Source: a virus
DNA length: 42,396 nucleotides
Reading direction: 5' to 3' (one strand)
Virus record (IMG/VR): IMGVR_UViG_3300013093_000091
Location: 1 to 42,396 of that record
The notes under the pieces are model-generated. The model did not search any database, had not been told where the DNA came from, and saw only the letters and a program-made list of their open reading frames with translations. The position numbers and the translations under genes were made by a program. Shown here piece by piece: positions 961 through 25,219 of this stretch. Each line of letters begins with the position of its first letter. The stretch's first letter is position 1.

Positions 961-961
961 C

Positions 962-1264
962 ATGGCAGCAAATTATACAAATGTTAGTCCTTGGTATACA
1001 ACTCCAATTACTAACAACTATTTAGATGTACTGACTATTAGACCAGTACCAGCATCTGCCGACGATTTTTTATATACAATACAACCTCAATATACTTACA
1101 GACCAGATTTATTAGCATTTGATTTGTATAAAAATGCAGGACTTTGGTGGGTGTTTATACAACGTAATCTTGATGTATTACAAGATCCTATACTTGATTT
1201 TGTTCCTGGCGCACAAATCTATATACCACAAGGTACAGGGTTAGCAACATTATTAGGATTATAA
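962..1264 (+). CDS. 53: Baseplate wedge protein gp53
   Basis: A 100-residue protein starting at the ATG at 962. The frame is open further upstream, but that part overlaps the preceding gene, and the ATG follows its stop by one base. The sequence carries the LysM-like gp53 signature: DLLAFDLYKNAGLWWVFIQRN, then DPILDFVPGAQIYIP near the C-terminus. In T4, gp53 clamps wedge subunits together; the T4 protein is about twice as long, so this is a minimal version holding only the LysM-like part. The ribosome binding site is weak (GGAT), and coupling to the upstream gene is likely. Family call is fairly sure; the exact wedge contacts are inferred. Confidence 0.82.
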   Translation: MAANYTNVSPWYTTPITNNYLDVLTIRPVPASADDFLYTIQPQYTYRPDLLAFDLYKNAGLWWVFIQRNLDVLQDPILDFVPGAQIYIPQGTGLATLLGL

Positions 1265-5422: not shown

Positions 5423-5443
5423 ACTACGCACATAATTTTAATC

Positions 5444-5469: not shown

Positions 5470-8400
5470 ATGAGCTCAACGGATAGACTAAACAACCTGC
5501 TAGTGAGCGAAGACTGGCAAAAAATTTATCAATCATTTAAAAACGCAGACTTCCAAAGCTACGATTTTGAAAATCTGCGCCGTACAATGATCAATTATAT
5601 CCGTACGAATTTTCCAGAAGATTTTAATGATTATATCGAAAGTTCGGAATATCTAGCGTTAATCGATGTCATTGCTTTTCTTGGGCAAAGTATTGCATTT
5701 CGTGTTGATTTAAATGCTCGTGAAAACTTTTTAGAACTAGCAGAGCGCCGTGATAGTGTATTACGTTTAGCTCGTATGATAGGTTATAATCCTAGTAGAA
5801 ACGTTCCAGCAAGTGGTTTATTAAAAGTAAATGCAATAAGCACAACAGAAACTGTATTAGATAGTAATGGAATTAATCTAGCAGGACAATATATTACTTG
5901 GAACGATCCAAGTAATATTAATTGGTACGATCAATTTATTAAAATAATTAATTCAGCATTATTGACAACTAATCAATTTGGCAATCCAATTGATCAAGCT
6001 AGCATTTATGGTATTAGTGCCGGACAATATAGATTTAATGGTGCTAATAACAACGTTCCTGTTTATAGTTTTAGTAAAACTGTAGCTGGACGAGTAATGA
6101 ATTTTGAAATAACCAGTACTACATTTGCAAATCAATCATACATTTACGAAGAACCTCCTTCGATTGGCAATCAAATTGCATGTGTTTATCGTGATGACGG
6201 CTTTGGAGCCGGTAGTCCTAACACAGGATTCTTTTTTAACTTCACACAAGGTACATTAAATCAAGCAACCTTCATAGTTAATCAGCCTACAAGTAACGAA
6301 ACAATCGATATTGATACTCAGAATATTAATAATACTGATGTATGGCTATGGCAATTAAATCAAAGTACAGGATTAGAGGATACGCTTTGGTCTCAAGTTC
6401 CTGCTCTAACAGGTAATAATATTATCTATAATAGCTTAAACAATAAAATAAAAACAATTTATAGTGTTATTACTCGAGCTAACGATACAGTATCGTTATC
6501 ATTTTCTGATGGAACATTCGGACAATTACCATTAGGAAATTTTAGAGTTTATTACAGAACCAGTAATAATTTAACATATACAATTAATGCTTCGGATATT
6601 TTAAATGTTTTAATTACAATTCCTTACACAAGTAGTAAAGGCCAAACTGAAACTTTAACATTAAGTCTTGGACTAGTTACTAGCGTTTCTAATAGTTCTG
6701 CAACTGAAACAAATGCAAGTATTAAAACCAATGCTCCACAAACATATTATACACAAAATCGTATGGTTACTGGAGAAGACTATAACATCAGTCCATTATC
6801 AGTTACACAAAAAGTTGCTAAAGTTAAATCTATTAATAGAACAGCTAGCGGTATTAGCCGTTATTTTGATTTAGTTGATCCAACTGGAAAATATTCTAGT
6901 ACTAATTTGTTTGGTGACGATGGAATTATCTATCAAGAATCTTATACATCAACTACTAATTTTTCTTATCTAACTAAAACTGATATCGAAGGTATAATTT
7001 ACAACACTATATTTCCAATATTAAATACTCCTGATTTACGTAATTTTTATTATGCAAATTACATTAACTATATTACAGAAAGTCTTAATATTTCTTGGTA
7101 TAATAAAACTAGCGATAGCAATAGCAGTACAGGATATGTAGGATCTTCATCAGACGCAGTACCATATAAAGTTGGATCGTATACAAGTACGGATTTAAAA
7201 TATTTTACTACTGGTGCGTTAGCAAAATTTGTAGCACCTACTGGTCAATATTTTAATACAAACAACGACAATAAATTATTGTCAATACCAGTTGTTAACG
7301 GAGTTCAACAAGCTCTGCCTTCAGGCGGAACAACTTATATTTGGGCTCAAGTAGTATCTATTACTACAGACGGAACAGCTAGCGGTACTGGTCTGTTATC
7401 AACAGGGTTTGGTCCAATAACGCTTAACAAGATTGTTCCAACTGGAGCTGTAATTAATCAAATTATTCCACAGTTAAATGTGACAATACAAGCATCAGTT
7501 GTTACAACAATGATTGATTTAATTTTTAATAACAAGCCATTTGGCCTTCGTTATGATGCTACTACACAAAGCTGGCAAATTATTTTTGAAACTAACTTGA
7601 ATACTACTAGTGCATTTAGTTTAGGTAATCAAGGAGATATTACTAATTCGCAGTTAGATTCTAGTTGGATATTATTGTTTACAACTAACAATCAGTATTA
7701 TACTGTAAATTCTCGTTTACTGCGCTACATCTTTGAAAGCAATAAAGAAATAACTTTCTATTTTGATAGTACACAAAAAGTGTATGACACAGTAACTAGC
7801 AATACAATTTTAGATAGTTTAAAAATTTTAAGCATCAATACTCAGCCGGATAATACAATCCCATTTACAACTGATATGGCTTGGCAAATTATCAGCGAAT
7901 ATAACGGTGCAGATGGATATACAGATCCAAGTAAAATTGTTGTAGCATTTGCTGACAGTGAAAATAATGGTATCGTAGATAACCCACAATTATTTTTAGA
8001 TATTGTTTCTCCAACAACTAATAGTTTACAAAAATACATCATTCAACAAAAATATTTAATAAGTGCCGGACAAGAAGATTATCAATATGTTAGCAATGCT
8101 GACAATACTGTGATAATTTTAAGTACTCAAAGTAACGTTGGATCTTTGACTCAATATACTGACGGACAATATTTTTATTTTGTTGATAAACAAGTCGTAA
8201 AAAAATACGATGCATCAACAAGCACTTTAAATCCGACACTTGATTATAAAGTATTTGTTGGACGTGACAATTTAAAATTTCAATATATTCATAATGCTGA
8301 CTATGATAGTCGAATCGATCCAGGTGCAAGTAACATCATGGACATTTATGTATTAACTACAGCATATGATACACAATTTAGACAATGGTTATCAGGAGCA

Positions 8401-8955
8401 AACGTTGATGAACCATTGCCTCCAAGTAGTACAGAACTTAATAATTTATTAGGTACAGACTTAAATTTAATTAAATCTATTTCGGATGAAATTGTATATC
8501 ATCCAGTTAGTTATATTTTATTATTTGGATCACAAGCCGACCTTAGTTTGCAAGCTACATTTAATGTAGTAAGAAACCCAAGTAGTACTGCAAGTGATAA
8601 TGACATTATTTCAAGAATAATCACAGCAATTAATCAATTCTTTGCTCTTGAAAATTGGAATTTTGGAGATACATTCTATTTTTCAGAATTATCGACTTAC
8701 GTTGTAACACAATTATTACCAGATATTACTAATTTTGTAATTGTTCCTAAACAAGGAAATCAGTATTTTGGCAGTTTATTTGAAATCCAATGCCCTAGCA
8801 ATAAAATATTCATCAGTTGTGCAACAGCATCTGATATTAATATTGTTGCAGGGCTAACATCTGATAATTTAAAAACAGTAACAGGTTCAGCATTAAATTC
8901 AGTAGTAACAAATCAAAACATTACTAGTGCAACATTCGGAGTAACTAATGGCTAA
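5470..8955 (+). CDS. 6: Baseplate wedge protein gp6
   Basis: An 1161-residue protein. The N-terminus has the typical gp6 opening: DRLNNLLVSEDWQKIYQSF, then NFPEDFNDYIESSEYLALIDVIAFLGQSIAFRVDLNARENFLELAERRDSVL broken over residues 50-100. In T4 this region builds the gp6 ring that links wedges. Near residues 350-450 FSDGTFGQLPLGNFRVYYRTSN and RMVTGEDYNISPL match the baseplate-J-like core. The C-terminus (HPVSYILLFGSQADLSLQATFNV, WNFGDTFYFSELSTYVV) resembles the gp6 dimerisation end. T4 gp6 is about 660 residues, so roughly 500 extra residues lie in the middle. ATG 5470 has AGGA six bases upstream and a late-type promoter. Its last 8 bases overlap the giant gene. Confidence 0.88.
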   Translation: MSSTDRLNNLLVSEDWQKIYQSFKNADFQSYDFENLRRTMINYIRTNFPEDFNDYIESSEYLALIDVIAFLGQSIAFRVDLNARENFLELAERRDSVLRLARMIGYNPSRNVPASGLLKVNAISTTETVLDSNGINLAGQYITWNDPSNINWYDQFIKIINSALLTTNQFGNPIDQASIYGISAGQYRFNGANNNVPVYSFSKTVAGRVMNFEITSTTFANQSYIYEEPPSIGNQIACVYRDDGFGAGSPNTGFFFNFTQGTLNQATFIVNQPTSNETIDIDTQNINNTDVWLWQLNQSTGLEDTLWSQVPALTGNNIIYNSLNNKIKTIYSVITRANDTVSLSFSDGTFGQLPLGNFRVYYRTSNNLTYTINASDILNVLITIPYTSSKGQTETLTLSLGLVTSVSNSSATETNASIKTNAPQTYYTQNRMVTGEDYNISPLSVTQKVAKVKSINRTASGISRYFDLVDPTGKYSSTNLFGDDGIIYQESYTSTTNFSYLTKTDIEGIIYNTIFPILNTPDLRNFYYANYINYITESLNISWYNKTSDSNSSTGYVGSSSDAVPYKVGSYTSTDLKYFTTGALAKFVAPTGQYFNTNNDNKLLSIPVVNGVQQALPSGGTTYIWAQVVSITTDGTASGTGLLSTGFGPITLNKIVPTGAVINQIIPQLNVTIQASVVTTMIDLIFNNKPFGLRYDATTQSWQIIFETNLNTTSAFSLGNQGDITNSQLDSSWILLFTTNNQYYTVNSRLLRYIFESNKEITFYFDSTQKVYDTVTSNTILDSLKILSINTQPDNTIPFTTDMAWQIISEYNGADGYTDPSKIVVAFADSENNGIVDNPQLFLDIVSPTTNSLQKYIIQQKYLISAGQEDYQYVSNADNTVIILSTQSNVGSLTQYTDGQYFYFVDKQVVKKYDASTSTLNPTLDYKVFVGRDNLKFQYIHNADYDSRIDPGASNIMDIYVLTTAYDTQFRQWLSGANVDEPLPPSSTELNNLLGTDLNLIKSISDEIVYHPVSYILLFGSQADLSLQATFNVVRNPSSTASDNDIISRIITAINQFFALENWNFGDTFYFSELSTYVVTQLLPDITNFVIVPKQGNQYFGSLFEIQCPSNKIFISCATASDINIVAGLTSDNLKTVTGSALNSVVTNQNITSATFGVTNG

Positions 8956-11900
8956 TAGTCAAGACGCACAAAAAGGTAATACTAGTCTTAGTATAAAGTT
9001 TCTTCCAACATTTTATCAAACTAGTGCCAACAGAAAATTTTTACAAGCTACTGTTGATCAACTTTTCCAGCCCGGCACAGTAAAGAAAATCAATGGATAT
9101 ATTGGTCGAGAAAATGCTAAAAGTGCCACAGGTACAGATATCTATATTACTGCTCCAGAATCTGATAGACAGAATTATCAATTTGAACCTTCTATAACAA
9201 TTAAAGATTCGTTAGGTAATAATACTTTCTTTAAAGATTATATTGATTATATTAATCAAGTTGGTGTATTTGGTGGCAACACATCTAATCATGCTAGGTT
9301 AAACAAGCAAGAATTTTATAGTTGGAATCCACATATCGATTGGGATAAATTTGTTAATTTTCAAAATTATTATTGGCTACCGTACGGACCTGACACTATT
9401 AAAATTGTAGGTCAGCAACGTGCCATTGAAAGTACTTATACTGTCTCAATTGAATCTGAAATTAATAACAATGAATACGTCTTTACTCCTAACGGATTTA
9501 CACGTAATCCTGTATTAAAATTATACAGAGGACAAACTTATATATTTGAAATCAATAGTCCTGGAAATCCATTCAGCTTTAAAACTGCACGTAGTATAGG
9601 AACTTCTGATAGATATCTTACAAATTTTATTGATAATTATGGAGTAGAAGTTGGAACTGTTACATTCACTGTTCCTCTAGATGCTCCATCATTGATGTAT
9701 TATCAAAGTGAAACAGATATTAATCTAGGCGGCGCCATAGAAGTTCTAGATATTTCAGATGATACTTATATTGATATTACTAGTGATTTATTAGGAAAGA
9801 AAACTTATAAACTTCCTAACGGAACTTATTTAAGCAATGGTATGAAAGTAGCATTTGCAGGAAATGTTACCCCTTCAAGTTATGCATCTGGAGAATATTA
9901 TGTCGAAGGCGTTGGAACTTCAATTAAATTAATTTCAACAACAACTTTAGAAGTTATCAACTCTTATACTACAGAAGAAACTATTCCTTTTGATAGCGAT
10001 AAATTTGATACAAATCCGTTTAGCGATGCTACTGGATTTGCAGGAACTCCAGATTATATTTTAATTAACCGTGCAAGTACCGATTATAATAATTGGAGTC
10101 GTTACAATCGTTGGTTCCATAAAGATGTAATAATATCTAGTGCATCTTATAACGGCAATGTTGCTAGTTTAGATCAAAAAGCAAGAGCTATTCGCCCTAT
10201 TATTGAATTTGAAGCAAATTTAAAATTAGCTAATTCAGGAACAACTGCAATATCTGACATAGATATAGTAGACGATTATACAACAGATGCGTTTTCAGTT
10301 ATAGAAGGAAGTTTTGGATATAACGTTGACGGAATTCCTCTTGCACAAGGTCAGCGTATTATTTTTACAGCAGACGAAGATAGACTAATAAGAAATAAAA
10401 TTTTTGAAGTACAGTTCTTAGATGTATTACATTTAAGTTCAGGTAGTCGTCAGATACATTTAGCTGAAATTACTGATCCAGCAACATTGACAAATATAAT
10501 TCCAGTAGTTTTAGTTAAATCTGGTGTAAAATATCAAGGTAAATCTTTTTGGTATAACAGAACTACTTGGGTATTAGGCCAGCAAAAAACTACAATCAAT
10601 CAAGCACCTTTGTTTGATGTTGTGGATTCTAACAAAATTAGTTATGGAGATACTAGTGTATATAATGGATCTACATTTGCTGGAACCACATTGTTTTCTT
10701 ATAAAATAGGAACTGGATCAAATGATTCTGCATTAGGATTTCCATTAAGTTATAGAAATATTAGTAACATCGGTGACATTGTTTTTAATTTTACACTGAC
10801 TACTGATAGTTTTCAATATAAAGAATCTACAGCAGTTATTACACAAGACATTAATGTAGGTTATTTGATCAAACAAGACTATGCAGGAAACTTAGTTTAT
10901 CAGAACGGATGGACTACTTGTACAGTTCCAAACACACAAGCCGCCATTAGAATTTATAAAAATTCAGGATTAACAAATAATTTTAATATTGATATTTTTG
11001 ATGATATTACAAATCTTTCTGATTTAGTTGTAAGAATTTATGTTAACGGTAAAAGACTTGATCCAACATTATGGTCTATAAGCAACGGCCCTCAATATAA
11101 AGTTGTTAATTTAACAACTGCTATTGGTACATCCGATGTATTAACAATTCGTGCATTTGCCGCTCAACCGATAAATGCTAACGGATATTACGAAATACCT
11201 TTAAATTTACAAAATAATCCGTTGAATAATACAATGGGTGATTTTACATTAGGTGAAGTTATTGACCACGTAGAATCTATAGTAGATAATTTATCAACTA
11301 CATTTGTTGGAAGTTTTCCAGGTTCTGGAAACTTAAGAGATCTTGGATCTATTACTCAATACGGTACTAAATTTGTACAACATAGTGGCCCTTTAAGTAC
11401 TGCTATCTATCATATTACTACAGAATCGAATAACATGATCCGTAGTATTGAACAAAGTAGAGATGATTACAGTAACTTTAAACGTAATTTTATTAAAACT
11501 GCTACGAATCTTGGCATCGATGGAGATCCAGTTACACTAGTTGATTTGATTATGCAAAAATTGAATAAGGATAAGCCTAATACTGCTCCTTATTATTTTA
11601 GCGATATGATTCCGTATGGCGCCGCAGTGAAAACTAATCTTACTGTAGTTGATCATCGAATTAAACAATACCCATTAAGCTCTGTTTTTACATTAGATGT
11701 ATTGTCAAATAAAGCTGTAGGTGTTTATCTAAATGGTGTACAACTAATTTACGGACAAGATTATACATTTAGCGATCAAGGATTTGTTATTATTGATTCT
11801 AGTATATCAATGAATAACGGAGACACTATCACTACAGTAGAATACGATAGTACAGATGGATCTTTTGTTCCAGCTACGCCTACCAAATACGGTATGTGGC

Positions 11901-14900
11901 CTGCTTATACTCCAAAAATTTATTTAGATACTACTCTAGTTACACCTCAAATGATGATACAAGGGCACGATGGAAGTCTTGTATTAGCATACGGTGATTA
12001 TCGTGATAATTTAATTTTAGAATTAGAAAAACGTATCTTTAATAATATTAAAGTAAAATACGATCCTACTATTTTTGATATTGCTGATATTATTCCTAGC
12101 TACAATCGAACTAATGATTATAGTTTAGCAGAATTTAATAACGTATTGTCTTCAAATTTTTATAAATGGATTAGTTTAACTGGTCAAGATTTTACACTAC
12201 CGCTTAACTACGATTTAAACAATTCGTTTACATACAATTATTCTAATTCGGCAGCACCAGATGGCACTCCTCTTCCAGGTTATTGGAGAGGAATTTATCG
12301 TTATCTATTAGATACCGACCGCCCTAATTTATGTCCTTGGGAAATGTTAGGATTCAGTATTCAACCAAGTTGGTGGGTAGAAAAATACGGTCCTGCTCCT
12401 TATACAGGTGATAATTTACCAATGTGGCAAGATATTAACGATGGCATGGTTCGTGCTCCAAATAGTCTTCCATACAAAGTTCCTAAGTATGCTAAACCAT
12501 TTTTAATGGAGCATATTCCTGCAGATAGTGATGGTTTATTAAAGAGTCCACTATTTTCAGGATTAGCATTTGGCCCTATTACACAAAGCGTTGATAATAA
12601 TTTTGTGTTTGGCGATGTTGCTCCTGTTGAAAATGCATGGCGCAGAAGTAGTTACTATCCTTTCAGTGTAATACTTGCAAGTACTTTATTAACTCCTGCA
12701 AAAACTTTTGGTTTATTATTAGACAGATCACGTATAGTTAGAAATCTTGCTGGACAATTAGTTTATAAAGATACAGGATTACGAATTCGTCCTCAGGATA
12801 TTTTAATTCCTAGCATTTATTCAAGTACCAAACGAGTACAAACTGCGGGTATTATTAACTATACAATTGATCATATTTTAAATTTTATCTTTAGTAATAA
12901 TGTAAAGTCTTATAATACATACGTTAGTGATTTATCTAATTTAACAGCTCAATTAAGTTATCGAATTGGTGCATTTACTAGTAAAGATCAAATTAATTTA
13001 TTATTAGATAGTAAGACACCGTTGAGTTCGGGTAGTGTATTTGTACCTCAGGAAAACTATCAAGTTATATTGAATAGTTCTAGTCCTGTTAAAAAGATAA
13101 CTTATAGCGGTGTTATTGTTACTAAATTGCAAAGCGGATATGCTGTAAAAGGTTATAGCAGAACTCAACCTTACTTTACATATTATCCTTATATACAATC
13201 TGGGCCAACAATTAATGTAGGCGGCATTAGCGAACCTTATACTACTTGGACTACTGGTGAAGAATATGTTGCTGGTAGCGTTATTCAATTTGGCAATGTA
13301 TATTATAGAACTCCAACAACTATAGTTGCAGGAACAACATTTGATCCAACACAATTTGTTTCTTTAGGAGCACTACCAGTTATTGGCGGAACAAATGCTA
13401 TATTGAGAATACGTTGGGATAGATCAAGTCCGATTGTAGTTCCATACGGTACAACATTTAACACAGCACAAGAAGTTGTTGACTTCTTATTAGGGTATGG
13501 ACGCTGGTTAAAAGATCAAGGATTTGTGTTTGATGATTTTAATACAAATTTACAAGCAATTTCAAACTGGGAAACTAGTGCTAAAGAATTCTTATTCTGG
13601 ACAACACAAAATTGGTCGGCCGGTGCAAACAAGTGGAGCGATTGGGAACCAAATGTAGCAATTTCATATGGTACTGTTGTAAGATACAATGGAAATTATT
13701 ATAGCGCATTGTATAATAATCCTCCGTCTAATGAATTTAATGAAAATTTATATGTTGTAGTTAACGGTATAGATGCTGTTGGCAATAGTGTGATTAGTTT
13801 AAGTCCTAGCGCAAGTAAATTAACGTTCACAACTCATTTAGAAGTAGTCGATGATATTAAAAATCAATTTTATGAATATGAAATTTTTAAAGTTGATGGA
13901 ACACCTATACAACCACAATTTTTAGATAGCTATAGAAATGGCAATGTTGTAAACTATTCTCCAAGAACAACTGACGGAATTTATAGTGCTACATTCTATC
14001 TAATACAGCATGAACACGTAGTTGTAGTTGATAACGCTACAATTTTTAATGATATAATTTATAATCCAGAAAGTGGTTATAGACAAGAACGTGTAAAAGC
14101 CTCAGGGTATGTGAGTGTTGATTGGTACGGCGGACTAGATATTCCAGGTTTTATATTTGACGAAGCAATTATTCAAGCATGGCAACCATGGCAAGATTAT
14201 GCACTAGGGGACATGGTAAATTACCAAGGATTTTATTATAGTGCATTAACAGCCTTACCTGGTACAGAAAGTTTTGTAGCCGCCAACTGGACACGTTTGT
14301 CCGAAAAACCAACTGCACAGTTAATACCAAACTGGACATATAAGGCCACACAATTTACTGATTTTTATAGTTTAGATAGTGACAACTTTGATACTGCCCA
14401 ACAAACAATGGCGCATCATCTAATTGGTTATCAAAAACGTCAATATCTTGACAATATTATTCAAGATGATGTTAGTGAATTTAAATTCTATCAAGGAATG
14501 ATTCGTGAAAAAGGAACACAAAACAGTCTTAATAAATTGTTTAATGTTTTAAGTTCTGACAATTTAGAAAGTTTAGTGTTCTACGAAGAATGGGCATTGC
14601 GTTTAGGTCAATACGGCGCCGCACGAGCTTTTGAAAATATTGAATTTATTTTAGATGAATCTCAATTTAGAACAAATCCTCAAGGATTTGAATTATCTCA
14701 AATAGCAAATCCTAGTCTTGATGAAACATTTATTATACAACAAAATTCTAACGATGTGTATTTAAAACCGTTAGGATATAATTCAAATCCATGGCCTACA
14801 TTATCTACATATAAACCGTTCTTGCGTAGTGCAGGTTATGTAAATTCTAAAGATGTATTTTTAAGTATAGGACATCTATCAGAAATTGTACATCAAGATA

Positions 14901-17900
14901 TTAATACATTCTCCGAAGGGTCATATATTTGGGTCACCTTTGAAGGCCCAAGTTGGAATGTTTATAGATATACTGACTTGCATATTCGTGCAACTGCTGT
15001 AACTTATAGTTCTAATGTTCTTACAATTACTACTGAAAATATAGTTAATTTAAAAGTAGGAGATTGGATAGGCTTGTCTCAAGTTTCAATATTAAAAGGT
15101 TTCTATCAAATTGCAACAATTGAACTTAATAAGTTTACTATTAATACTACCATTACAGGTTTTCCAAGTCAATTTACACAGTCTAACGAATTATTAATTT
15201 ACGGATTTTTAAGTCAACGTGCTAGTACTATTGATAATTTAGATAGCATTCTTGCACCTAATGTAAATCCTGGAAGCCTAGTATGGACAGATGACCAAGG
15301 AAACGGCAAATGGGCTACTTGGAAATTTGAGCCAGTATATAATATTTCGTATCTAAACAATTCTGCCCCGCAAAGAAGTTTAGAGTTTGGATCAGTTATT
15401 GCTATTAGCAGAGATGGATCTATTTCTGCTGTAGGAACAGGATTCGGCCAAATTACTACTTACGATAAATCTAGTACAGCTCTTCCATGGGTACAGAGAC
15501 AAATTATTGAACCACCGTTTATTGCTAAAAATACTGTTTATACTGTTACTGCAACTACAGTACTTAACAGTACTACAGTTACTACATCCGCTGCCGCATC
15601 TGGAATGGTAGGAGGTATAATTACAGGTCAGGGTATTCCTTTAGATACACTTGTAGTTTCAGTAAGCGTGGGTGTTAGTTTAACAATTAGTCAACCTGCA
15701 AATGCATCAAGTTCTGGAACCACATACAATGTAACAACTAATCCTAATCCAGGAAATATTATTGCATCATCGATTGCAATATCTCCCGATGGCCAGTATA
15801 TGATTACAGGAAGCCCATTGGCTGGAAATGCAGTCACAAATTATCTTGGTCAGTATGATAGTAGTAAAATATACGGTCCTGGAATAATAGTAAGTGACAC
15901 AAACGAATTTACTGGATTTACTGATTATTACAAAGCTACACAGGTTGTTCCTGCTAACACTGATCCAATTGACGGATCAAATTCAAATTATTGGCAACCT
16001 GTTTATTATGTTCCTGTTAATAGTTACGGTACATGGGATGATACTGTAATCTATCCAGCGAATACTCTAGTAGTTTATAAGAGTAACGTATATAAGGCAG
16101 CCACCGAGGTATACGGTCAAGTAACTATCACAGTTACAAACACGGCAGCATCTACGTATTATTTGACTACCTCGGATACTAGTGTGCTAGCACCTGGCTA
16201 CGAAATTATTTTTTCAGGAAATGTATTTGGAGGAATTACAGTAGGTCTTATTTACTATGTAAAAACAATTATTAGTAGTACACAATTTACAATAACCGCA
16301 GTACAGAATAGTAATTTAACAGTACCATTAACTGCGGCATCGGGAATTATGTCTGCTACACAGCAAGCACAAGCTACTCCCGATAGCGGCAACGGTCAGT
16401 GGACTTTCCAATACGCACAAAATGGTTATTCTGCTCAAGGTGTAATTAGTTTGTATGAAAAAGATGCAAACAACATTTACTCTTTAATCGACACTATCAT
16501 AAGCCCAGTTCCAGTGGCCAACGAATATTTTGGATCAGCATTTGCATTTGGCAATGATGTAATTTATATCTCTGCTCCAGGCTATAGTTCTAGCACTGGC
16601 AGAGTTTATAAATTAAAATATTCTACGGTTGTACAAGCACAATCTGCATATAACCCTGTAGGAAGTTCAAATGCAACATTGCGTGTAACTAGTACAGTCG
16701 GTATAAGAGCAGGCATGTATGTCTTAGGAACAGGTTTTACTAGTGGTCAAACAGTTACTAGTGTAGTTGATTCTACTACAATGATATTGAGTGGAAGTCC
16801 TGATAGTACACCAAATGGTGTAATTAAATTTGCAGTTATTGGCTGGGGATATGATCAAACAGAAATTTATACAGGTATTGTATCTGGTATGAATTTTGGT
16901 TATAGTTTGGCTATTAGTAATGATAATTCTACTTTAGCAATTAGTGCCGCAAGTACTGTCGAAACAGCACTAGTAGCAATATTTAAAGCAACACCAACTA
17001 ATATATTAACAACAACTGCCGCTAGTGGCAACGGCACTACTGCAACGTTAACATTTACTCGACAAAATCTTGTACCATATGCAGTAGGAGATACTATCAC
17101 AGTATCTGGATTATCCCCAACTGGATATAATGGTTCTTATGTTGTAACGGCATGCACTACTACATCTGTTAGTTATGCTAACGCAACTATTGGATCACAA
17201 ACTCATGCTGGCACTATTACTGGAAATAGTTTGTCTGGATTTGGTCTAACACAAATACTAGCAGGTACAGATTATGATATTCAATTAGCTATATCGGATG
17301 ACGGATCTTATATTGCAATCTCCGATGATACAGTCAGTACTTCCCAAGTTAAACAACAAGGATCTGTGGCAATTTATAACAATGTCAACGGTGTATATGA
17401 ATTCTATCAAAGTATAGTTCCTCACCAGCCAGAGACAAATGGCCACTTTGGTCGCAAGATTGCTTTTATGAATAACTATTCAACTTTAGTAATCTATAGT
17501 CAATATGGCGATACATTTATAACCACGTCACTTGACGGCGGAACTACAACTTTTGATAAGAGTTCAACTGTATTACGAGCTCGTCAAACTAATAGCGGCC
17601 GTATCGATATCTATGACAAATATGCTAATAATTGGGTGTTCAGTGAAAGTTTAACAAGATCAAACCCAGTAACACCGGCTGGCGAATTTGTAGTAGGCAA
17701 CACTTATTCAATATTAACATTAGGAACTACTGATTTTACCCTTGTCGGTGCTAGTACAAATGCAATCGGTGTTACTTTCACAGCAACAGGCGACGGTAAA
17801 GGTACAGGTACTGCGGCAATAGTTACTAACGAATCTGGAATTGCAGACGGATACGGAACTGGATTAGCAGTTGGCGCGAACCACATCTTAGTTGGAGCCC

Positions 17901-20900
17901 CATTTGGTATAGATCAAGGATTAACTTCTGGTCGCGTATATGATTATGGAAAAGTCCAGGGCATCAATTCTTGGAATATTATCCATAGTGAAATTGATAA
18001 ACCAGATGTAACAAAAATTAAGAAAGCATTCTTGTATAATCGTGTATTAGGCACTTTATCAACTTATATAGATATTATTGATCCTGCACAAGGTAAGATT
18101 GCAGGTCCTGCTGATGAAGAAATTAAATTTAAAGCATTTTACGATCCTGCAACATATACTGTTGGAGATACTACTGTAAACGTAAATGTTGGTACAGCAT
18201 GGACTGATGATAAAATTGGTCAATTATGGTGGGATCTGAGAACAGCTAAATTCTTAAATGCTTACGAAAATGATCCAGTATATAAAAACACTAACTGGAA
18301 TACACTAGCCACTGGTGCAAGTATTGATATTTACGAATGGGTAAGTTATAAACAATTACCTGCGGTCTGGGATAGCCTAGCCGATACACCTGCAGGAATA
18401 GCACAAGGAATAAGCGGAACAAGTTTATATGGTAATACGGTTTATAGTGTAAAACAAACATATAATACTGCAACACAACAATTTAAAAATACATATTATT
18501 TCTGGGTTAAAAATAAAAAATTCATTCCTAATGTACCTGGCAGAAATATGGCTGCTCAAGACGTTGCTAGTCTAATAGCAAATCCAAGAGGACAAGCATA
18601 CACTTATCTTGCACTGACCGGTCCTGGTAGTTTTAGTTTAGTTAATGCTAAGTCTTATTTAAAATCAGACGAAGTGGTTCTAAGCGTAGAATACTGGACA
18701 GGACAAAAAACAGATCAAAATATTCATAGTCATTGGAAAATGGTTAGCAATGATCCGACAACATATATTCCTCCAGTAATCGAGCAAAAATGGATTGATA
18801 GTTTGTGTGGAAATGATACTGCCGGAAGACTAGTTCCCGATCCATCGTTACCTGTTAAGTTACGCTATGGTATTGAAAATCGTCCTCGTCAAGGAATGTT
18901 TGTAAACAGATTTGAAGCATTAAAAGAATTTGTAGAGCTTGCAAATATCATATTATCTGAAAATCAAATTGCAGAAAATTATAGCTTGAAAAAATTAGAA
19001 AGTTACGATCCAGTTCCAGATTCAACTTTAGGTTTATATGATGTAACATATGATACAGTTTCTGAATTGAGTTATGCAAGCATTACTAATTTTGTACAAC
19101 CAGTAATAATTCCTAATATTTCAGACGGAAAAATTATTGGAGTAACAATTACTACATCTGGTAAAGGTTATGTAACTGCACCTTATCTTAATGTATCTGG
19201 TTCAGGAACTGGTGCAGTATTAAGAACAGTTCTTAATGCAAAAGGTCAAATTACTGGTGTAACTGTATTATCTAGCGGAGAAGGTTACGGAAGCGATACT
19301 ACTTTATCGATACGAAGTTATTCAGCTTTAGTTACTAGTGATGCAGATGCTAATGGTAATTGGAGCATTTATACATATGATACTATACAACAAACATGGA
19401 CTCGTACATTAACACAAGCATACGATGTTAGAAATTATTGGAGTTACGCTGATTGGTACGGATCTTATACTGATACTACAGGAAAAGTACTATTCACCGC
19501 TTCGCAATTTGTAACAGCAGATTTTTCTGTTGCTACAATTAGCGATTTAAATTCACTAACACCTAATATTGGACAAACTGTTAAAGTTAGAACAAGCAAT
19601 TCTGGTGGATGGACATTATTGTACAAATACGCAGAATCTTCAAGTGTAGATTGGACACAAAGTTATGCGGTGGTAGGATTACAAAATGGTACTATAAAAT
19701 TAAGTAGCAGTTTGTATAATTTATCTGGCACATCTTTAGGTTTTGATAATGCAATTTATGATGCATCCGAATATGACTTGGTTGCGGCAACAGAATTAAG
19801 AATTATTTTAAACAGTCTTAAGAACGATATCTTTATTGGAGATTTAAACGGATCATATTTGGATTTATTCTTTGCTAGCGTACATTATGTACATAGCGAA
19901 CAGCCGTATGTTGATTGGATATTTAAAACAAGTTTTGTAAGAGCTCAGCATAATGTTGGCGGATTAAACCAACCGGTAACTTATAAACCTGATAATCTTG
20001 CAAACTTTGAAGATTATGTTAATGAAGTTAAACCATATAAAACAAAAGTAAGAGAATATATCAGTAACTACGACAGTATAGATCCTGCACAATTGCCTAT
20101 CACTGATTTTGATATGCAACCGTTCTACGATGGTACTAAAATGTCCTTGATAGAAGTTTATGCACAACAAGGAAAAATTATTGCAGAAAATCCAGCAATA
20201 CAAAATTATCCATGGAAATTTTGGTTAGATAATGTTGGATTTATAGTTACTGAAATTAAATTAACTAGTGGTGGTAGCGGTTATGTTACAGAACCTCAAG
20301 TTATTATTTCAGGACTTAGTGGATCTGGTGCAACAGCTCGTGCATTTATTAGTAATCAACAAGTTAATAGAATTGTTTTATTAACTTCTGGTAGCAATTA
20401 TTTAGAAGCGCCAACAGTTACCATTAAAGGAGGAACAATCCCGACAGGTGTTCCTGCAACTGCAACAGCTATTATTGGCAATGGTGTTGTTAGATCAAAC
20501 TATATTGGAATTAAATTTGATAGAGTTGATCAAAAATATTACATAACAAATTTAGAAAAAACTGAAATATTTACTGGTACAGGTAGCCGTTTACAGTTCC
20601 CATTAACATGGGGTCCAGATTCTAAAATAGGAAAAAGCACTGTAACTATAAATGGTGTACTTGCATTAAGGGACGGATACACTCTAAATATTGCTTCAAG
20701 TACAGCAAAAGGCTACACAACTTATTCAGGAACAATTACGTTTACAACTGCTCCATCAAAAGGCGCAAGTATTGTGGTTGTTTATAACATTGACGAGTCA
20801 TTATTATCTGCAACTGATCGTATACAATACTACTATAATCCAACTACTGGAGAGTTAGGTAAAGATCTTGCACAATTAATGACTGGTATCGACTATGGTG

Positions 20901-23900
20901 GTGTAATAGTAAATGGATTAGGATTTGAAATATCTCAAGGATGGGATAGTGTTCCATTCTACTCAGATAAATGGGATACTTATGATCCTGCTTATACAGA
21001 TTATGCAGTTGTAGTGGATGCAAATACACACATATTTACATTGCCTTATACTCCAACAGCTAATACTCAGCTAAACATTTATAGAACAGCAAATAATGTT
21101 GATTCTTATTTGTCAGACGGTGTTACTAAAACTTATTCTTATGATATACACGATGTAAGTCCTTATGTTACTGTATCCAATACAACAAAAACTAAAGGAG
21201 TTAATGTTGCATTTACATCTATAAATGTTGTATCAGGTGTATTTGGAATTATTTTAACAGTAGCTAGTACTGCAAATATCGCAGTAGGCATGACTGTAAC
21301 TGGTAATGGGTTTGTTAGTGGGCAGACAGTTGTTGCTATACAAAATTCTACAACAATTACTTTAAGTGGTCCTCCTGATAGTCAACCAAGCGGCACATTA
21401 ATTTTTACACGTAATATTGCTGGAAGTTCAACATTGACTGTTTCTAGTATAGCAGGTGTACGTGTAGGAGATACTATTTCTACAGCCGATCAAAGTTTAT
21501 CTTTATTTGTAGAAGGCACAACGGTAAAATCAATATCAGGTACAACTGTAACATTAAGTTCAATATTGTATTCTGACATTCCAGATTCTACTTATGTAGT
21601 GTTTACAAGAACATTAGTACAGCCTACAGATGTAACTATTTCTACAGCTGGCACAATTGAACTAACAAATTTATCTAACAGTGGTATTATTTCTGGAAGT
21701 ACAATTAGTATTATTGGAAAATTAAATCCAATAAGATTAGATGATCCTAATTATAATATTGCTCCATACTTTTCACAATTAATTGAGGCAAATGCTTATG
21801 ATACTGCATTTAATTCTAATTTCCAAAGTTTACTAGTTGGACTTGCAATATTAAATCATATTAACACATACAGTTATAAAGTATCAGAAACTGTAGCGTC
21901 GATTAATGCATTAGCAGAATCTATTAGTAGCTTACCTGCTATAGCAGGTAATTCTGCAGCCGAAGCAATTATTGACACTAATACTGCTATTATAACAAAT
22001 ATTATTAGCGGCGGAGTAGTCCCACAACCAGTGTTCAGTCCATTAACTTCGACATCTCAAGGACAAATACATGCGGCTACTTTGTTAAATGATAATATTC
22101 CTTTTATCCAAGCAGAGTTAGTACAGTATATTACTAATAATCATCCAGGCATAACTTATAATGTTACTGATTTTCAAACAAGAATACAGTACATTGTATT
22201 AAGTTTGTGTTATGATTTGACTTATGGCGGTAACAGAGAATCTGTATATAGTGGTATACAATATTGGATTTATAATAACAGTATTCCTTTTATACAACCT
22301 AGTGTTTATTGGAGCGGAATATTTGGCTATTTGAATACAATAGCTCAAAATATTATTACTAATACAACATTTACAAGATTACAAACACATTTCTTCCAGT
22401 ATACAAACAATTCGTTGTCTGGAGGTAGTACTGCCAGTTCAAGTATATCTTCTAATATTACTACTATCACTTCTATTGTTAGTGGATCATTCTATCCATC
22501 AGTAGTTGCAACACAACCTACATTAACAAATGCAACAGCTCCATTGCAAACTGTTGCAAATGCAATTTTAACAGCTGAATCTAAGTTAATTCCTTCAGTA
22601 AATCCAAATGCACTTGTTAATACTTTCTTGGCAGACGGATCTTCAAACACATTTAGTATTCCTCAACCATATACATTGATAGACGGCGGTGCAAGTACAA
22701 CTACTGTTGATATTACAGTAGACGACGGCGGCTCAGCTGGTACAGTGTTTGGATCTTTGGATACTATCGAAGATGGTAGTAATGCAAGTTCTGTTGTGTT
22801 TACAGTAGCAAAAGGTGACGAATTTATTATTCGTCAAATTACAAGCGACGGATCTGTAACTCCACCAGATGCAGATTATGATACAGCATTAAGCGGCGGC
22901 GATACTAGCACACTCAATGGTGTGTATGCTACTGCAACTGGACTAGCAGCCGACGACATTATACTTGACGGTGATAATTTTGTTACTGAAACTTCAAGTC
23001 CTGCTCCGGAAGAAGTAGTTCCTGGACAATTAGTTGATACTTTAGCAATTAAAGTTTATGATAAACCTACAGCTGGATCAGCTATGATTAAAGTTGATAA
23101 TTATTTAGGAGATGGTTCTACAACAACATTTAAAATTAGTCAAACTCCTAACAGTACCGGTGCAGTAATTGTAAAATCTAATGGATTAATAAAAACTATC
23201 ACTAGTGACTACGATATTGATTATAAAAATAGTAGTGTTGTATTCCATTCAGCACCTGTAACAAATTCTGAAATTAGTATTTTTAGCATAGGATTTGCTG
23301 GAGAAAATATACTAGATATTGATTATTTTATCGGTGATGGTACAACAGTAGAGTTTGTCACAAATGCAAAATGGCAAACTCCAGTGAATACACTGATTTA
23401 TGTAAACGGCGTAGTTGCAAGTCCTCAGATTTTTAAAACTGATCAAACTTATGAATATTCTAATGCAATTGGTTTTAGATTTGCAGTTGCTCCTCAAGCC
23501 GATGCATTAATTAATTTTATTATTGTATCTGGAAATCAACCTACTTATACAGTTACTGGAATAGAAACTGTTGCTACTACTAGTGCGACACGTACTTATA
23601 CATTACAAAATCCAATAGGAAACGGATTACCAAATGAATCAAATATGATTGTACGTGTTGACCAGACAATATTACCAGCACCAGTTAACAGTTATTTTAC
23701 AATTAGTAGCAACAGATTAAATTATACAATTGATCCTACTAAATTTGTTCCTTATAGTGTAGACATTGCAAATATAAATGTATTAGTTGGTAATGTTGCT
23801 TTAGTATTAGGTACAGACTATATTGTTGATTTAGGTGGAATTACAATCAAAATTAACAAAAATGTTTATACACTTTATAAAGGTCAAACATTAATAGTAA

Positions 23901-25219
23901 GTATAACTTCAACAAATGGTTATACTTATAATCCATCGACACACCAAATAACATTTGCACAGACATATGATAACACACATTTGGTACAAGTTATTGGATC
24001 ATACCAACATGAATTTTTAGATATAGAAAGAACTACAATTAATGCAAGTAGTACTGCTACTTTAGAACCTAATTCTTCTGCATTCTATTATTATGAAAAT
24101 GTACAAGGAGGTATTGTACAGTTAGATAGACCTGTATTAAATGATTATTATGTTTGGGTAATTAAAAATAACACACTATTGACACCTGTAATTGATTACA
24201 AATTAAATTCTGATTATCAAAGTATTACTTTGGCATCTGATTTGTTATCTTCTGATAATATTACATTGATTACATTCGGTAGCAATATACTAAAACCAGG
24301 CATTGCATACATGCAATTTAAAGATATGTTAAATCGTGTAAGTTATAAACGTTTAAGTAAAGCTAAACAAACTACACTTGCACAAGATTTACATTGGAAC
24401 GATACAGAGATTGTATTATCAGATGCCGCTAATTTTGATTTACCAAATCCATCTGCAAATAAACCAGGCGTAGTAGAAATACGAGGCGAGCGCATAGAAT
24501 ATTTTGCTATTAATGGAAATACATTAAGCCAACTTCGCCGTGGCACTTTAGGTACAGGAGTATACAATGTAAATCTTGCTGGTACTTTTGTTCAAGATAT
24601 TGGCGGAGCAGAAACTATTCCATATGCTGATAATCAGATTGTTCAACAAGTTATTAGTGACGGAACAAGCACAATTAATTTAGATTTTGTTCCAAAAGAT
24701 GTAAACGAAGTTGAAGTGTTTGTAGGCGGCTATAACGATGGCGCAGTTTGGGAACCAGGAGCAGTTTATGCGGTAGGTAGTATTGTTAATGTAGGTACAT
24801 ATACATACAGATGTAGAACAGCTCATATTAGCGGATCTACTTTCTTCAGTGCTGTAACTACAGTAACAATAAACTCAGACGGAACAACTACTGCATTGTC
24901 GTTAAATGTACCGAGTTCAAATGTGTGGAAATTCTTCATTGGTAATATACGTTTGAAGAAGGTTGGATACAGCGCATTTAACATAAACAATGCACCAGCA
25001 AGCCCAGAAGGCGATGTTGAATTCTTACCTGATTTTACAGTTGATGGTACTACTGCAAAAATAACATTAACTAATTTATTAAGTTTTGGTACACAAGTTA
25101 CTGTTATAAAAAATACAGGAACAGCATGGGATAATACCGTAAATATCATGGATGATACTGGAAAAATTAGCGATTTCCTAAGATCTCAACCTGGTATTTG
25201 GTATTCAGAGTACAAATAA
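8948..25219 (+). CDS. Giant 5423-residue baseplate/tail wedge protein, multi-domain
   Basis: A single uninterrupted frame, starting at ATG 8948 (GGAG at 8938-8941) inside the end of gp6. Residues 17-150 carry FLPTFYQTSANRKFLQATVD and FYSWNPHIDWDKFVNFQNYY, a pattern I associate with the wedge-initiator (gp7-position) proteins of marine T4-like phages. Residues 175-275 look cupredoxin-like (YRGQTYIFEINSPGNPFSF). Carbohydrate-binding-like W..Y..G..V.Y.G..Y modules occur near 1431, 1565, 1745, 2302, 2360 and 5265. Residues 2145-3005 hold seven propeller-blade motifs with inserts between blades. Two glycine-rich 'GGSGY..P' modules sit near 3400 and 3770. The C-terminus includes VVEIRGERIEYFAINGN and SQLRRGTLG. 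No gp7, gp8 or gp10 gene is seen separately in the window, so this protein may cover several wedge or receptor-binding roles. The exact role is inferred. Confidence 0.6.
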   Translation: MANSQDAQKGNTSLSIKFLPTFYQTSANRKFLQATVDQLFQPGTVKKINGYIGRENAKSATGTDIYITAPESDRQNYQFEPSITIKDSLGNNTFFKDYIDYINQVGVFGGNTSNHARLNKQEFYSWNPHIDWDKFVNFQNYYWLPYGPDTIKIVGQQRAIESTYTVSIESEINNNEYVFTPNGFTRNPVLKLYRGQTYIFEINSPGNPFSFKTARSIGTSDRYLTNFIDNYGVEVGTVTFTVPLDAPSLMYYQSETDINLGGAIEVLDISDDTYIDITSDLLGKKTYKLPNGTYLSNGMKVAFAGNVTPSSYASGEYYVEGVGTSIKLISTTTLEVINSYTTEETIPFDSDKFDTNPFSDATGFAGTPDYILINRASTDYNNWSRYNRWFHKDVIISSASYNGNVASLDQKARAIRPIIEFEANLKLANSGTTAISDIDIVDDYTTDAFSVIEGSFGYNVDGIPLAQGQRIIFTADEDRLIRNKIFEVQFLDVLHLSSGSRQIHLAEITDPATLTNIIPVVLVKSGVKYQGKSFWYNRTTWVLGQQKTTINQAPLFDVVDSNKISYGDTSVYNGSTFAGTTLFSYKIGTGSNDSALGFPLSYRNISNIGDIVFNFTLTTDSFQYKESTAVITQDINVGYLIKQDYAGNLVYQNGWTTCTVPNTQAAIRIYKNSGLTNNFNIDIFDDITNLSDLVVRIYVNGKRLDPTLWSISNGPQYKVVNLTTAIGTSDVLTIRAFAAQPINANGYYEIPLNLQNNPLNNTMGDFTLGEVIDHVESIVDNLSTTFVGSFPGSGNLRDLGSITQYGTKFVQHSGPLSTAIYHITTESNNMIRSIEQSRDDYSNFKRNFIKTATNLGIDGDPVTLVDLIMQKLNKDKPNTAPYYFSDMIPYGAAVKTNLTVVDHRIKQYPLSSVFTLDVLSNKAVGVYLNGVQLIYGQDYTFSDQGFVIIDSSISMNNGDTITTVEYDSTDGSFVPATPTKYGMWPAYTPKIYLDTTLVTPQMMIQGHDGSLVLAYGDYRDNLILELEKRIFNNIKVKYDPTIFDIADIIPSYNRTNDYSLAEFNNVLSSNFYKWISLTGQDFTLPLNYDLNNSFTYNYSNSAAPDGTPLPGYWRGIYRYLLDTDRPNLCPWEMLGFSIQPSWWVEKYGPAPYTGDNLPMWQDINDGMVRAPNSLPYKVPKYAKPFLMEHIPADSDGLLKSPLFSGLAFGPITQSVDNNFVFGDVAPVENAWRRSSYYPFSVILASTLLTPAKTFGLLLDRSRIVRNLAGQLVYKDTGLRIRPQDILIPSIYSSTKRVQTAGIINYTIDHILNFIFSNNVKSYNTYVSDLSNLTAQLSYRIGAFTSKDQINLLLDSKTPLSSGSVFVPQENYQVILNSSSPVKKITYSGVIVTKLQSGYAVKGYSRTQPYFTYYPYIQSGPTINVGGISEPYTTWTTGEEYVAGSVIQFGNVYYRTPTTIVAGTTFDPTQFVSLGALPVIGGTNAILRIRWDRSSPIVVPYGTTFNTAQEVVDFLLGYGRWLKDQGFVFDDFNTNLQAISNWETSAKEFLFWTTQNWSAGANKWSDWEPNVAISYGTVVRYNGNYYSALYNNPPSNEFNENLYVVVNGIDAVGNSVISLSPSASKLTFTTHLEVVDDIKNQFYEYEIFKVDGTPIQPQFLDSYRNGNVVNYSPRTTDGIYSATFYLIQHEHVVVVDNATIFNDIIYNPESGYRQERVKASGYVSVDWYGGLDIPGFIFDEAIIQAWQPWQDYALGDMVNYQGFYYSALTALPGTESFVAANWTRLSEKPTAQLIPNWTYKATQFTDFYSLDSDNFDTAQQTMAHHLIGYQKRQYLDNIIQDDVSEFKFYQGMIREKGTQNSLNKLFNVLSSDNLESLVFYEEWALRLGQYGAARAFENIEFILDESQFRTNPQGFELSQIANPSLDETFIIQQNSNDVYLKPLGYNSNPWPTLSTYKPFLRSAGYVNSKDVFLSIGHLSEIVHQDINTFSEGSYIWVTFEGPSWNVYRYTDLHIRATAVTYSSNVLTITTENIVNLKVGDWIGLSQVSILKGFYQIATIELNKFTINTTITGFPSQFTQSNELLIYGFLSQRASTIDNLDSILAPNVNPGSLVWTDDQGNGKWATWKFEPVYNISYLNNSAPQRSLEFGSVIAISRDGSISAVGTGFGQITTYDKSSTALPWVQRQIIEPPFIAKNTVYTVTATTVLNSTTVTTSAAASGMVGGIITGQGIPLDTLVVSVSVGVSLTISQPANASSSGTTYNVTTNPNPGNIIASSIAISPDGQYMITGSPLAGNAVTNYLGQYDSSKIYGPGIIVSDTNEFTGFTDYYKATQVVPANTDPIDGSNSNYWQPVYYVPVNSYGTWDDTVIYPANTLVVYKSNVYKAATEVYGQVTITVTNTAASTYYLTTSDTSVLAPGYEIIFSGNVFGGITVGLIYYVKTIISSTQFTITAVQNSNLTVPLTAASGIMSATQQAQATPDSGNGQWTFQYAQNGYSAQGVISLYEKDANNIYSLIDTIISPVPVANEYFGSAFAFGNDVIYISAPGYSSSTGRVYKLKYSTVVQAQSAYNPVGSSNATLRVTSTVGIRAGMYVLGTGFTSGQTVTSVVDSTTMILSGSPDSTPNGVIKFAVIGWGYDQTEIYTGIVSGMNFGYSLAISNDNSTLAISAASTVETALVAIFKATPTNILTTTAASGNGTTATLTFTRQNLVPYAVGDTITVSGLSPTGYNGSYVVTACTTTSVSYANATIGSQTHAGTITGNSLSGFGLTQILAGTDYDIQLAISDDGSYIAISDDTVSTSQVKQQGSVAIYNNVNGVYEFYQSIVPHQPETNGHFGRKIAFMNNYSTLVIYSQYGDTFITTSLDGGTTTFDKSSTVLRARQTNSGRIDIYDKYANNWVFSESLTRSNPVTPAGEFVVGNTYSILTLGTTDFTLVGASTNAIGVTFTATGDGKGTGTAAIVTNESGIADGYGTGLAVGANHILVGAPFGIDQGLTSGRVYDYGKVQGINSWNIIHSEIDKPDVTKIKKAFLYNRVLGTLSTYIDIIDPAQGKIAGPADEEIKFKAFYDPATYTVGDTTVNVNVGTAWTDDKIGQLWWDLRTAKFLNAYENDPVYKNTNWNTLATGASIDIYEWVSYKQLPAVWDSLADTPAGIAQGISGTSLYGNTVYSVKQTYNTATQQFKNTYYFWVKNKKFIPNVPGRNMAAQDVASLIANPRGQAYTYLALTGPGSFSLVNAKSYLKSDEVVLSVEYWTGQKTDQNIHSHWKMVSNDPTTYIPPVIEQKWIDSLCGNDTAGRLVPDPSLPVKLRYGIENRPRQGMFVNRFEALKEFVELANIILSENQIAENYSLKKLESYDPVPDSTLGLYDVTYDTVSELSYASITNFVQPVIIPNISDGKIIGVTITTSGKGYVTAPYLNVSGSGTGAVLRTVLNAKGQITGVTVLSSGEGYGSDTTLSIRSYSALVTSDADANGNWSIYTYDTIQQTWTRTLTQAYDVRNYWSYADWYGSYTDTTGKVLFTASQFVTADFSVATISDLNSLTPNIGQTVKVRTSNSGGWTLLYKYAESSSVDWTQSYAVVGLQNGTIKLSSSLYNLSGTSLGFDNAIYDASEYDLVAATELRIILNSLKNDIFIGDLNGSYLDLFFASVHYVHSEQPYVDWIFKTSFVRAQHNVGGLNQPVTYKPDNLANFEDYVNEVKPYKTKVREYISNYDSIDPAQLPITDFDMQPFYDGTKMSLIEVYAQQGKIIAENPAIQNYPWKFWLDNVGFIVTEIKLTSGGSGYVTEPQVIISGLSGSGATARAFISNQQVNRIVLLTSGSNYLEAPTVTIKGGTIPTGVPATATAIIGNGVVRSNYIGIKFDRVDQKYYITNLEKTEIFTGTGSRLQFPLTWGPDSKIGKSTVTINGVLALRDGYTLNIASSTAKGYTTYSGTITFTTAPSKGASIVVVYNIDESLLSATDRIQYYYNPTTGELGKDLAQLMTGIDYGGVIVNGLGFEISQGWDSVPFYSDKWDTYDPAYTDYAVVVDANTHIFTLPYTPTANTQLNIYRTANNVDSYLSDGVTKTYSYDIHDVSPYVTVSNTTKTKGVNVAFTSINVVSGVFGIILTVASTANIAVGMTVTGNGFVSGQTVVAIQNSTTITLSGPPDSQPSGTLIFTRNIAGSSTLTVSSIAGVRVGDTISTADQSLSLFVEGTTVKSISGTTVTLSSILYSDIPDSTYVVFTRTLVQPTDVTISTAGTIELTNLSNSGIISGSTISIIGKLNPIRLDDPNYNIAPYFSQLIEANAYDTAFNSNFQSLLVGLAILNHINTYSYKVSETVASINALAESISSLPAIAGNSAAEAIIDTNTAIITNIISGGVVPQPVFSPLTSTSQGQIHAATLLNDNIPFIQAELVQYITNNHPGITYNVTDFQTRIQYIVLSLCYDLTYGGNRESVYSGIQYWIYNNSIPFIQPSVYWSGIFGYLNTIAQNIITNTTFTRLQTHFFQYTNNSLSGGSTASSSISSNITTITSIVSGSFYPSVVATQPTLTNATAPLQTVANAILTAESKLIPSVNPNALVNTFLADGSSNTFSIPQPYTLIDGGASTTTVDITVDDGGSAGTVFGSLDTIEDGSNASSVVFTVAKGDEFIIRQITSDGSVTPPDADYDTALSGGDTSTLNGVYATATGLAADDIILDGDNFVTETSSPAPEEVVPGQLVDTLAIKVYDKPTAGSAMIKVDNYLGDGSTTTFKISQTPNSTGAVIVKSNGLIKTITSDYDIDYKNSSVVFHSAPVTNSEISIFSIGFAGENILDIDYFIGDGTTVEFVTNAKWQTPVNTLIYVNGVVASPQIFKTDQTYEYSNAIGFRFAVAPQADALINFIIVSGNQPTYTVTGIETVATTSATRTYTLQNPIGNGLPNESNMIVRVDQTILPAPVNSYFTISSNRLNYTIDPTKFVPYSVDIANINVLVGNVALVLGTDYIVDLGGITIKINKNVYTLYKGQTLIVSITSTNGYTYNPSTHQITFAQTYDNTHLVQVIGSYQHEFLDIERTTINASSTATLEPNSSAFYYYENVQGGIVQLDRPVLNDYYVWVIKNNTLLTPVIDYKLNSDYQSITLASDLLSSDNITLITFGSNILKPGIAYMQFKDMLNRVSYKRLSKAKQTTLAQDLHWNDTEIVLSDAANFDLPNPSANKPGVVEIRGERIEYFAINGNTLSQLRRGTLGTGVYNVNLAGTFVQDIGGAETIPYADNQIVQQVISDGTSTINLDFVPKDVNEVEVFVGGYNDGAVWEPGAVYAVGSIVNVGTYTYRCRTAHISGSTFFSAVTTVTINSDGTTTALSLNVPSSNVWKFFIGNIRLKKVGYSAFNINNAPASPEGDVEFLPDFTVDGTTAKITLTNLLSFGTQVTVIKNTGTAWDNTVNIMDDTGKISDFLRSQPGIWYSEYK
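15382..17905 (+). repeat. Seven propeller-blade motifs inside the giant protein, split by inserts
   Basis: Within the giant gene, the pattern 'fG.s.AiS.Dgs.iaisap' recurs seven times, at about residues 2146, 2270, 2525, 2648, 2776, 2831 and 2968 (for example IAISPDGQYMITGSP, LAISNDNSTLAIS, LAVGANHILVGAP). This is the FG-GAP/beta-propeller type of repeat. Between blades lie unrelated small modules: about 2197-2265, 2302-2460 (with carbohydrate-binding-like pieces), 2567-2628, 2684-2760 and 2908-2961. The repeats are at protein level; no obvious nucleotide-level duplication is seen. Confidence 0.55.

Follow-up and report, generated by a model that had tools for sequence, protein, structure and literature searches.

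Organization of the baseplate locus

The stretch of DNA analysed here, called the window, is a 42,396-base IMG/VR record that probably represents a fragment. PHROG and Pfam searches place in it, in this order, genes for a gp53-like protein, a virion structural protein, gp5-like, gp25-like and gp6-like proteins, a giant protein, a 202-aa protein and three tail-fibre-like ORFs (Table 1), and by these assignments the giant gene is surrounded by a predicted baseplate operon. The block gp53-x-gp5-gp25-gp6-giant is also present in GAP32, CBB, XbC2 and PBECO4, and the 202-aa protein matches in position and size the virion-detected gp357 of PA5oct (201 aa). Baseplate_J (PF04865), searched over the whole record, is absent. 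The gp5-like hub protein has 470 aa and lacks a lysozyme domain, whereas its counterparts in GAP32, CBB and PBECO4 have about 890 aa and are annotated with one. Among the tail-fibre-like ORFs, that at 29463-30959 shows a weak match to the Peptidase_G2 intramolecular chaperone, which suggests that it may be a self-cleaving fibre tip. On the minus strand (38869-41211), the gene for a MoxR-type AAA ATPase (phrog_1297) adjoins that for a DUF2201 metallopeptidase and VWA-like protein, forming a chaperone-like pair; the PHROG label of the latter, HNH endonuclease, is contradicted by Pfam.

The giant gene extends over 5,423 codons (16.3 kb), for which about 415 in-frame stops would be expected from the base composition, and the other two forward frames across it contain 429 and 641 stops, confirming the description in the earlier note of a stop-free frame right after gp6. 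Its ATG overlaps the 3' end of gp6 by the final 8 bases, a GGAG lies about 6-7 bases upstream of the start and the frame is closed by TAA TAA. Codon-position GC is about 0.42/0.42/0.16 and uniform over all 16.3 kb, the region holds no ambiguous bases, a search for tandem repeats found none, and counts of internal promoter motifs were not above those in shuffled sequences. The encoded protein is beta-rich in composition and rich in Thr, Ser and Asn. The view that it is one of the largest phage proteins holds insofar as it belongs to the top tier, but it is not the size record, since a 6,198-aa protein of S-ShM2 occupies the equivalent slot and a sister contig (L093) encodes 5,658 aa.

Table 1. 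Coordinates of the genes, blocks and modules in the window
Feature	Position	Strand	Residues	Basis and remarks
gp53-like wedge protein	908..1264	+		phrog_7145, E 8e-24; PF11246, E 0.004
Virion structural protein	1266-3554			PHROG/Pfam
gp5-like hub/spike protein	3567..4979	+		phrog_13211, E 1e-46; PF04717, E 1e-4, slightly below cut-off
gp25-like wedge protein	4979..5422	+		phrog_261, E 5e-22; phrog_43, E 1e-12
gp6-like baseplate wedge protein	5470..8955	+	1,161 aa	phrog_10646, E 3e-299; phrog_219, E 4e-21
Giant gp7-slot virion protein	8948..25219	+	5,423 aa	ATG start; 0 internal stops
Block A, conserved chassis	8948..15007	+	1-2020	~65% identity in uncultured clade; conserved in alignment up to about 2200
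CBM5/12-like small module	13238..13372	+	1431-1475	VIA-align, rmsd 1.3-1.4 Å over 44-45 residues, chitin-binding domains of chitin deacetylase
gp7-core-like segment 1	13472..13594	+	1509-1549	Core columns 30-69; prob 45-48%, E 2e-4
CBM5/12-like small module	13628..13768	+	1561-1607	VIA-align, Z 7.8, rmsd 1.3 Å over 46 residues, phage 7-7-1 tail fibre
CBM_5_12 module	14177..14311	+	1744-1788	PF02839, E 3.5e-6, above curated cut-off
gp7-core-like segment 2	14339..14569	+	1798-1874	KGT helix region, conserved EFKFYQGMIREKGT; prob 78-82%, E ~1e-5
Variable block V1	15332..17962	+	about 2129-3005	
Block B, second conserved chassis block	17975..20077	+	3010-3710	Conserved in alignment up to about 4050
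Block V2, hypervariable	21095..22867	+	4050 to about 4640	Absent from cultured relatives
Block C	22805..25216	+	4620-5423	Conserved only in uncultured clade
Conserved protein 3' of giant	25280..25888	+	202 aa	phrog_11259, E 2.5e-65
Tail-fibre-like protein, Collar and weak Gp10_C	25892..28282	+		PF07484, E 4e-15; PF21939, E 0.003; phrog_8763

Relatives of the giant protein and its block structure

A gp6 search of viral contigs retrieved at least 592 relatives, and 24 longer contigs were inspected 3' of gp6. A complete giant frame of 4,455-5,658 aa, unbroken in every case, was found in 23 of them, some contigs being near-identical, and in the 24th the frame reaches the contig end after 4,357 aa. 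In isolates, including the cultured jumbo phages PA5oct, CBB, GAP32, Atu_ph07 and SCTP-2, the proteins in the corresponding slot have 3,138-4,555 aa. The giant gene directly follows gp6 in the window, as it does in almost all relatives that were examined. In SCTP-2, the gp6 match sits elsewhere in the genome, and just 5' of the gp7-slot giant, where gp6 would be expected, lies a second giant, the 3,096-aa hypothetical protein gp141 (L005:4612-13902).

The phrog_10938 profile (3,324 positions) matches most of the conserved length of the giant, with E 3e-238 in the N-terminal half and E 4e-75 in the C-terminal half. Members of this PHROG, annotated as virion structural proteins in RaK2-, PA5oct- and Atu_ph07-like jumbo phages (GAP32_230, CBB_236, PA5oct gp355, Atu_ph07 gp180), share with the giant the slot after gp6 and blocks A and B, and differ from it in their shorter length, in V2 and C, which are not common to both, and at the junction of A and B. 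Relatives are present in virions: the PA5oct homologue gp355 carries an ESI-MS/MS flag in its database record, CBB_236 was detected with 21 peptides at 7.7% coverage (PMC5259590), and gp245 of phAPEC6, a 382-kDa protein with 17 unique peptides listed after the wedge protein gp244 (PMC7247149), is taken as a homologue by its size, neighbour and phage group. The PHROGs category of the giant tail-baseplate proteins of phrog_10938 and phrog_701 is 'head and packaging'.

An alignment of 22 clade members defines the blocks of the giant, which follow one another as conserved A (residues 1-2200), variable V1 with islands (2200-3000), conserved B (3000-4050), hypervariable V2 (4050-4620) and conserved C (4620-5423). 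HMMs of blocks A and B find their counterparts in 10 of the 11 isolates, with E-values down to 1e-143, RAS14 giving no match to either at 1e-3, while those of V1, V2 and C match none of the eleven; A and B thus constitute the common chassis. Block A corresponds by homology to the N-terminal part of every cultured jumbo-phage relative tested apart from RAS14. The suggestion that both ends of the protein are wedge-associated hence stands for the N-terminal 2,000 residues, common to cultured relatives and holding the gp7-like core described below, but not for the C-terminal end, for which cultured relatives gave no match. In some relatives (L088-L090, L094, L098-L102, L105-L108), the giant is separated from the usual fibre genes by one or two additional large ORFs, and a number of these giants have a TFDxG-type C-terminal motif as compared to the GIWY end in the window; two alternative C-terminal arrangements apparently exist.

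A predicted beta-propeller and CBM-like modules

A compact homologue of V1 (L152, 51% identical to V1 of the window) gave an AF2 model with pLDDT 80 and pTM 0.79, for which the best 43 rows of VIA-align were all integrin alpha chains (Z 29-32, 331-349 aligned residues, ~3 Å rmsd). Against viral model libraries, the top match of this model was part of an uncultured Caudovirales phage protein (32% identity), followed by other FG-GAP proteins, and FG-GAP_2 matches the window protein itself at E 1.8e-4, slightly below the cut-off. Based on the homologue model, V1 is predicted to be a seven-bladed integrin-alpha-type beta-propeller with modules inserted in the inter-blade loops. The likeness to the integrin alpha-subunit headpiece, an FG-GAP beta-propeller with seven blades, is one of fold only, given 13-17% identity and other inserted domains, and does not imply an integrin-like function. 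The propeller is present in all 70 scorable relatives, and its segment ranges from 559 to 1,309 residues, varying with the modules inserted between blades. The adhesin-like middle that the earlier note had recognized therefore finds its counterpart in this propeller (Z 32 for the homologue model). Of the CBM-like modules, those at residues 1561-1607 and 1744-1788 sit between the two gp7-like segments, and block C shows a weak CBM_5_12 match at residues 5268-5295. Receptor binding by the propeller and CBM-like modules is plausible.

Among cultured relatives, the A-B junction is shortest, at 69-108 residues, in Mimasvirus-type phages, PBECO4 and PA5oct; Vibrio 2.275 has 147 residues there, SCTP-2 has 382, and Atu_ph07 and Phosso have about 1,520. 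It holds a short linker in GAP32, CBB and PA5oct, a chain of GSGY modules over the ~1,520 residues of Atu_ph07, and a propeller with exchangeable loop modules in the window clade; hhalign gave no propeller signal in the inserts of the four phages tested (PA5oct, SCTP-2, Atu_ph07 and Phosso). A jellyroll suspected by eye in the SCTP-2 insert was not confirmed by Pfam. A tentative reading, which we consider less likely than not, is that the wedge protein serves as a receptor-contacting chassis in which one fixed A-B junction takes alternative surface domains.

Evidence for a putative gp7 core

Giant proteins in the slot after gp6 bear the annotation gp7 or wedge initiator in the cyanophages P-HM2 (4,454 aa) and S-B05 (4,024 aa), and hence the size class as such is not new. 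In S-ShM2, the 6,198-aa protein SShM2_093, directly after gp6, contains PF23786 (Baseplate_wedge) at residues 691-736 and weakly at the N terminus; phrog_26741 matches both this giant (E 1.7e-31) and T4 gp7 (E 1.7e-5), and the S-ShM2 profile compared with the T4 gp7 profile gives E 2e-5. These cyanophage proteins resemble the window giant in slot and size (4,024-6,198 aa) and in combining a gp7 core with long modular additions, GSGY-type modules being common to both. They differ from it in that their core is N-terminal and contains an insertion of ~100 (P-HM2, S-B05) to ~620 (S-ShM2) residues, and they share no full-length homology with it beyond promiscuous modules. In S-ShM2, the label gp7 'baseplate wedge initiator' is attached to SShM2_094 (L118/L119), a YHYH-domain protein in which the gp7 core is absent, and the core is carried by the preceding 6,198-aa 'virion structural protein'; the label on SShM2_094 thus looks like a misannotation.

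Direct hhalign of the blocks of the giant against T4 gp7 and its close relatives only falls on the KGT helix and is not significant, and hence a deeper and more diverse gp7-core profile was needed. A compact profile of 109 sequences, comprising T4 gp7 with the T4 group, phiM19, IME-SM1, two further phages and 79 IMG/VR loci, was scanned in profile-profile mode along the entire window-family profile. Over the whole giant, the segment at residues 1798-1874 ranks first and that at 1509-1549 second, with scores of 28.8-37.8 at the real sites as compared to 14.7-25.3 for 14 column shuffles and 19.3 for the reversed profile; the matches are of moderate strength. In the set of Atu_ph07, Phosso, PA5oct and SCTP-2, the same scan places its top sites at Atu_ph07 residues 1564-1606 and then 1350-1393, which are homologous positions. 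Counted against the gp7 reading are the GAP32 group, where the homologous site comes no higher than third and is weak, and SCTP-2, where the gene preceding the giant differs from the gp6 match. The Pfam models PF23786, PF21427, PF21428, PF21456 and PF09684 do not match the giant, but PF23786 and PF09684 also miss T4 gp7, and phmmer searches of PDB sequences with the giant and with gp6 as queries gave no match. AF2 modelling of residues 1151-2200 yielded weak fold matches, with a core pLDDT of about 33-57 and segment 2 helical at low confidence, and gp7 was not in the fold-search list. A split gp7 core whose first half would be the N terminus of the giant (LPxFYQT) had been considered and was dropped, since the blind scan located that half at 1509-1549.

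The slot after gp6, the match to phrog_10938, the core scan above shuffles, the homologous sites in the Atu_ph07 set, the bridge through the cyanophage giants and the relatives in virions together argue that the giant is probably the gp7 equivalent, i.e., a gp7-slot baseplate wedge protein, its functional identity with gp7 being what we infer from these lines. It shares with T4 gp7 the slot and the core profile similarity, around T4 residues 650-760, but T4 gp7 has 1,032 aa, and its domains V and VI (PF21427, PF21456) are undetected in the window giant.

Alternative interpretations

It is unlikely, though the case is not trivial, that the giant is instead a large fibre- or adhesin-type protein of peripheral location whose gene lies within the wedge operon, with the real gp7 being an unrecognised gene elsewhere. 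The beta-rich, Thr/Ser/Asn-rich composition, the propeller and CBM-like modules and the failure of curated gp7 domain models to match would suit such a protein, and so would the fact that the S-ShM2 gene labelled gp7 is a different ORF; that ORF, however, is the YHYH protein without a gp7 core, whereas the same-slot cyanophage giant has a clear one. The place after gp6, kept in nearly every relative examined, and the gp7-core matches, found at homologous positions in two distinct families, likewise favour a wedge protein of gp7 type.

Considerably less probable is a true multi-gene fusion, in which gp7, gp8, gp9 and gp10 would form the whole outer wedge as one polypeptide. The giant does occupy the position of the T4 gp7-gp10 genes, its length would suffice, and a gp8 profile picks up residues 3381-3451 (prob 94%), which is the sole gp8 signal. 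This match covers nothing but a GSGY-type module, which is inserted in cyanophage gp8 and occurs in many copies in S-ShM2 and in unrelated virion proteins, and gp8 was rejected as a fused part, no match to its core being found outside promiscuous modules. Furthermore, T4 gp9, gp10, gp11 and gp12, used as single sequences, give no signal in the giant (the best for gp10, with the T4 sequence alone as query, being prob 2.7%), the Gp10_C and Collar domains lie outside it in the ORF at 25892-28282, and only 69-147 residues separate A from B in most cultured relatives. From the proposal of the earlier note, a fused wedge and receptor-binding protein, what survives is a very large protein in the gp7 slot, probably a virion protein of the baseplate-wedge type, with an adhesin-like middle; the multi-gene fusion is not supported.

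That the frame is an assembly chimera or a read-through artefact, a concern raised by an unusual 16.3-kb frame in a metagenomic fragment, can be set aside with near certainty in view of the single unbroken frame after gp6 in 23 other IMG/VR contigs, the steady codon-position GC and the homologues in complete isolate genomes.

Proposed role and significance

In T4-type contractile tails, the gp7 core joins gp6 and gp25 in six wedges. The window comes from a freshwater jumbo phage, uncultured and related to the wider RaK2/PA5oct/Atu_ph07 group as a member, and its giant would be a gp7-type baseplate wedge protein enlarged by insertions. By analogy with T4, the small helical core of this protein (residues ~1509-1549 and 1798-1874, with CBM-type modules between) would pack against the gp6 encoded just upstream and, in joining gp6 and gp25, build each of the six wedges. 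Blocks A and B serve as the chassis, into which surface modules are plugged, namely the propeller between A and B, the CBM5/12-like modules inside A and the hypervariable V2 further on. Six copies of the giant would ring the baseplate, the propeller and CBM-like modules most likely facing outward and contacting the host surface or holding tail fibres.

Giant gp7s of cyanophages are already known and the jumbo family has its own PHROG; as far as searches of open-licence papers go, the tentative gp7 assignment of this family is new, and so are the integrin-type propeller and the finding that one site takes very different inserts. Since the family is filed as 'head and packaging' or 'hypothetical' in databases, many jumbo phages carry a virion protein that ranks among their largest and yet is functionally blank. 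A gp7 wedge slot with exchangeable insert sites tells the structural biologist where the protein is to be expected and which pieces are candidates for host binding. Should the fixed A-B junction indeed take alternative surface domains, host recognition would be swapped inside gp7 itself and not only in detachable tail fibres. With the gp7 assignment, giant gp7s would be represented in cyanophages as well as in RaK2-like jumbo phages, two separate lineages where wedge size and surface domains vary greatly around one small core.
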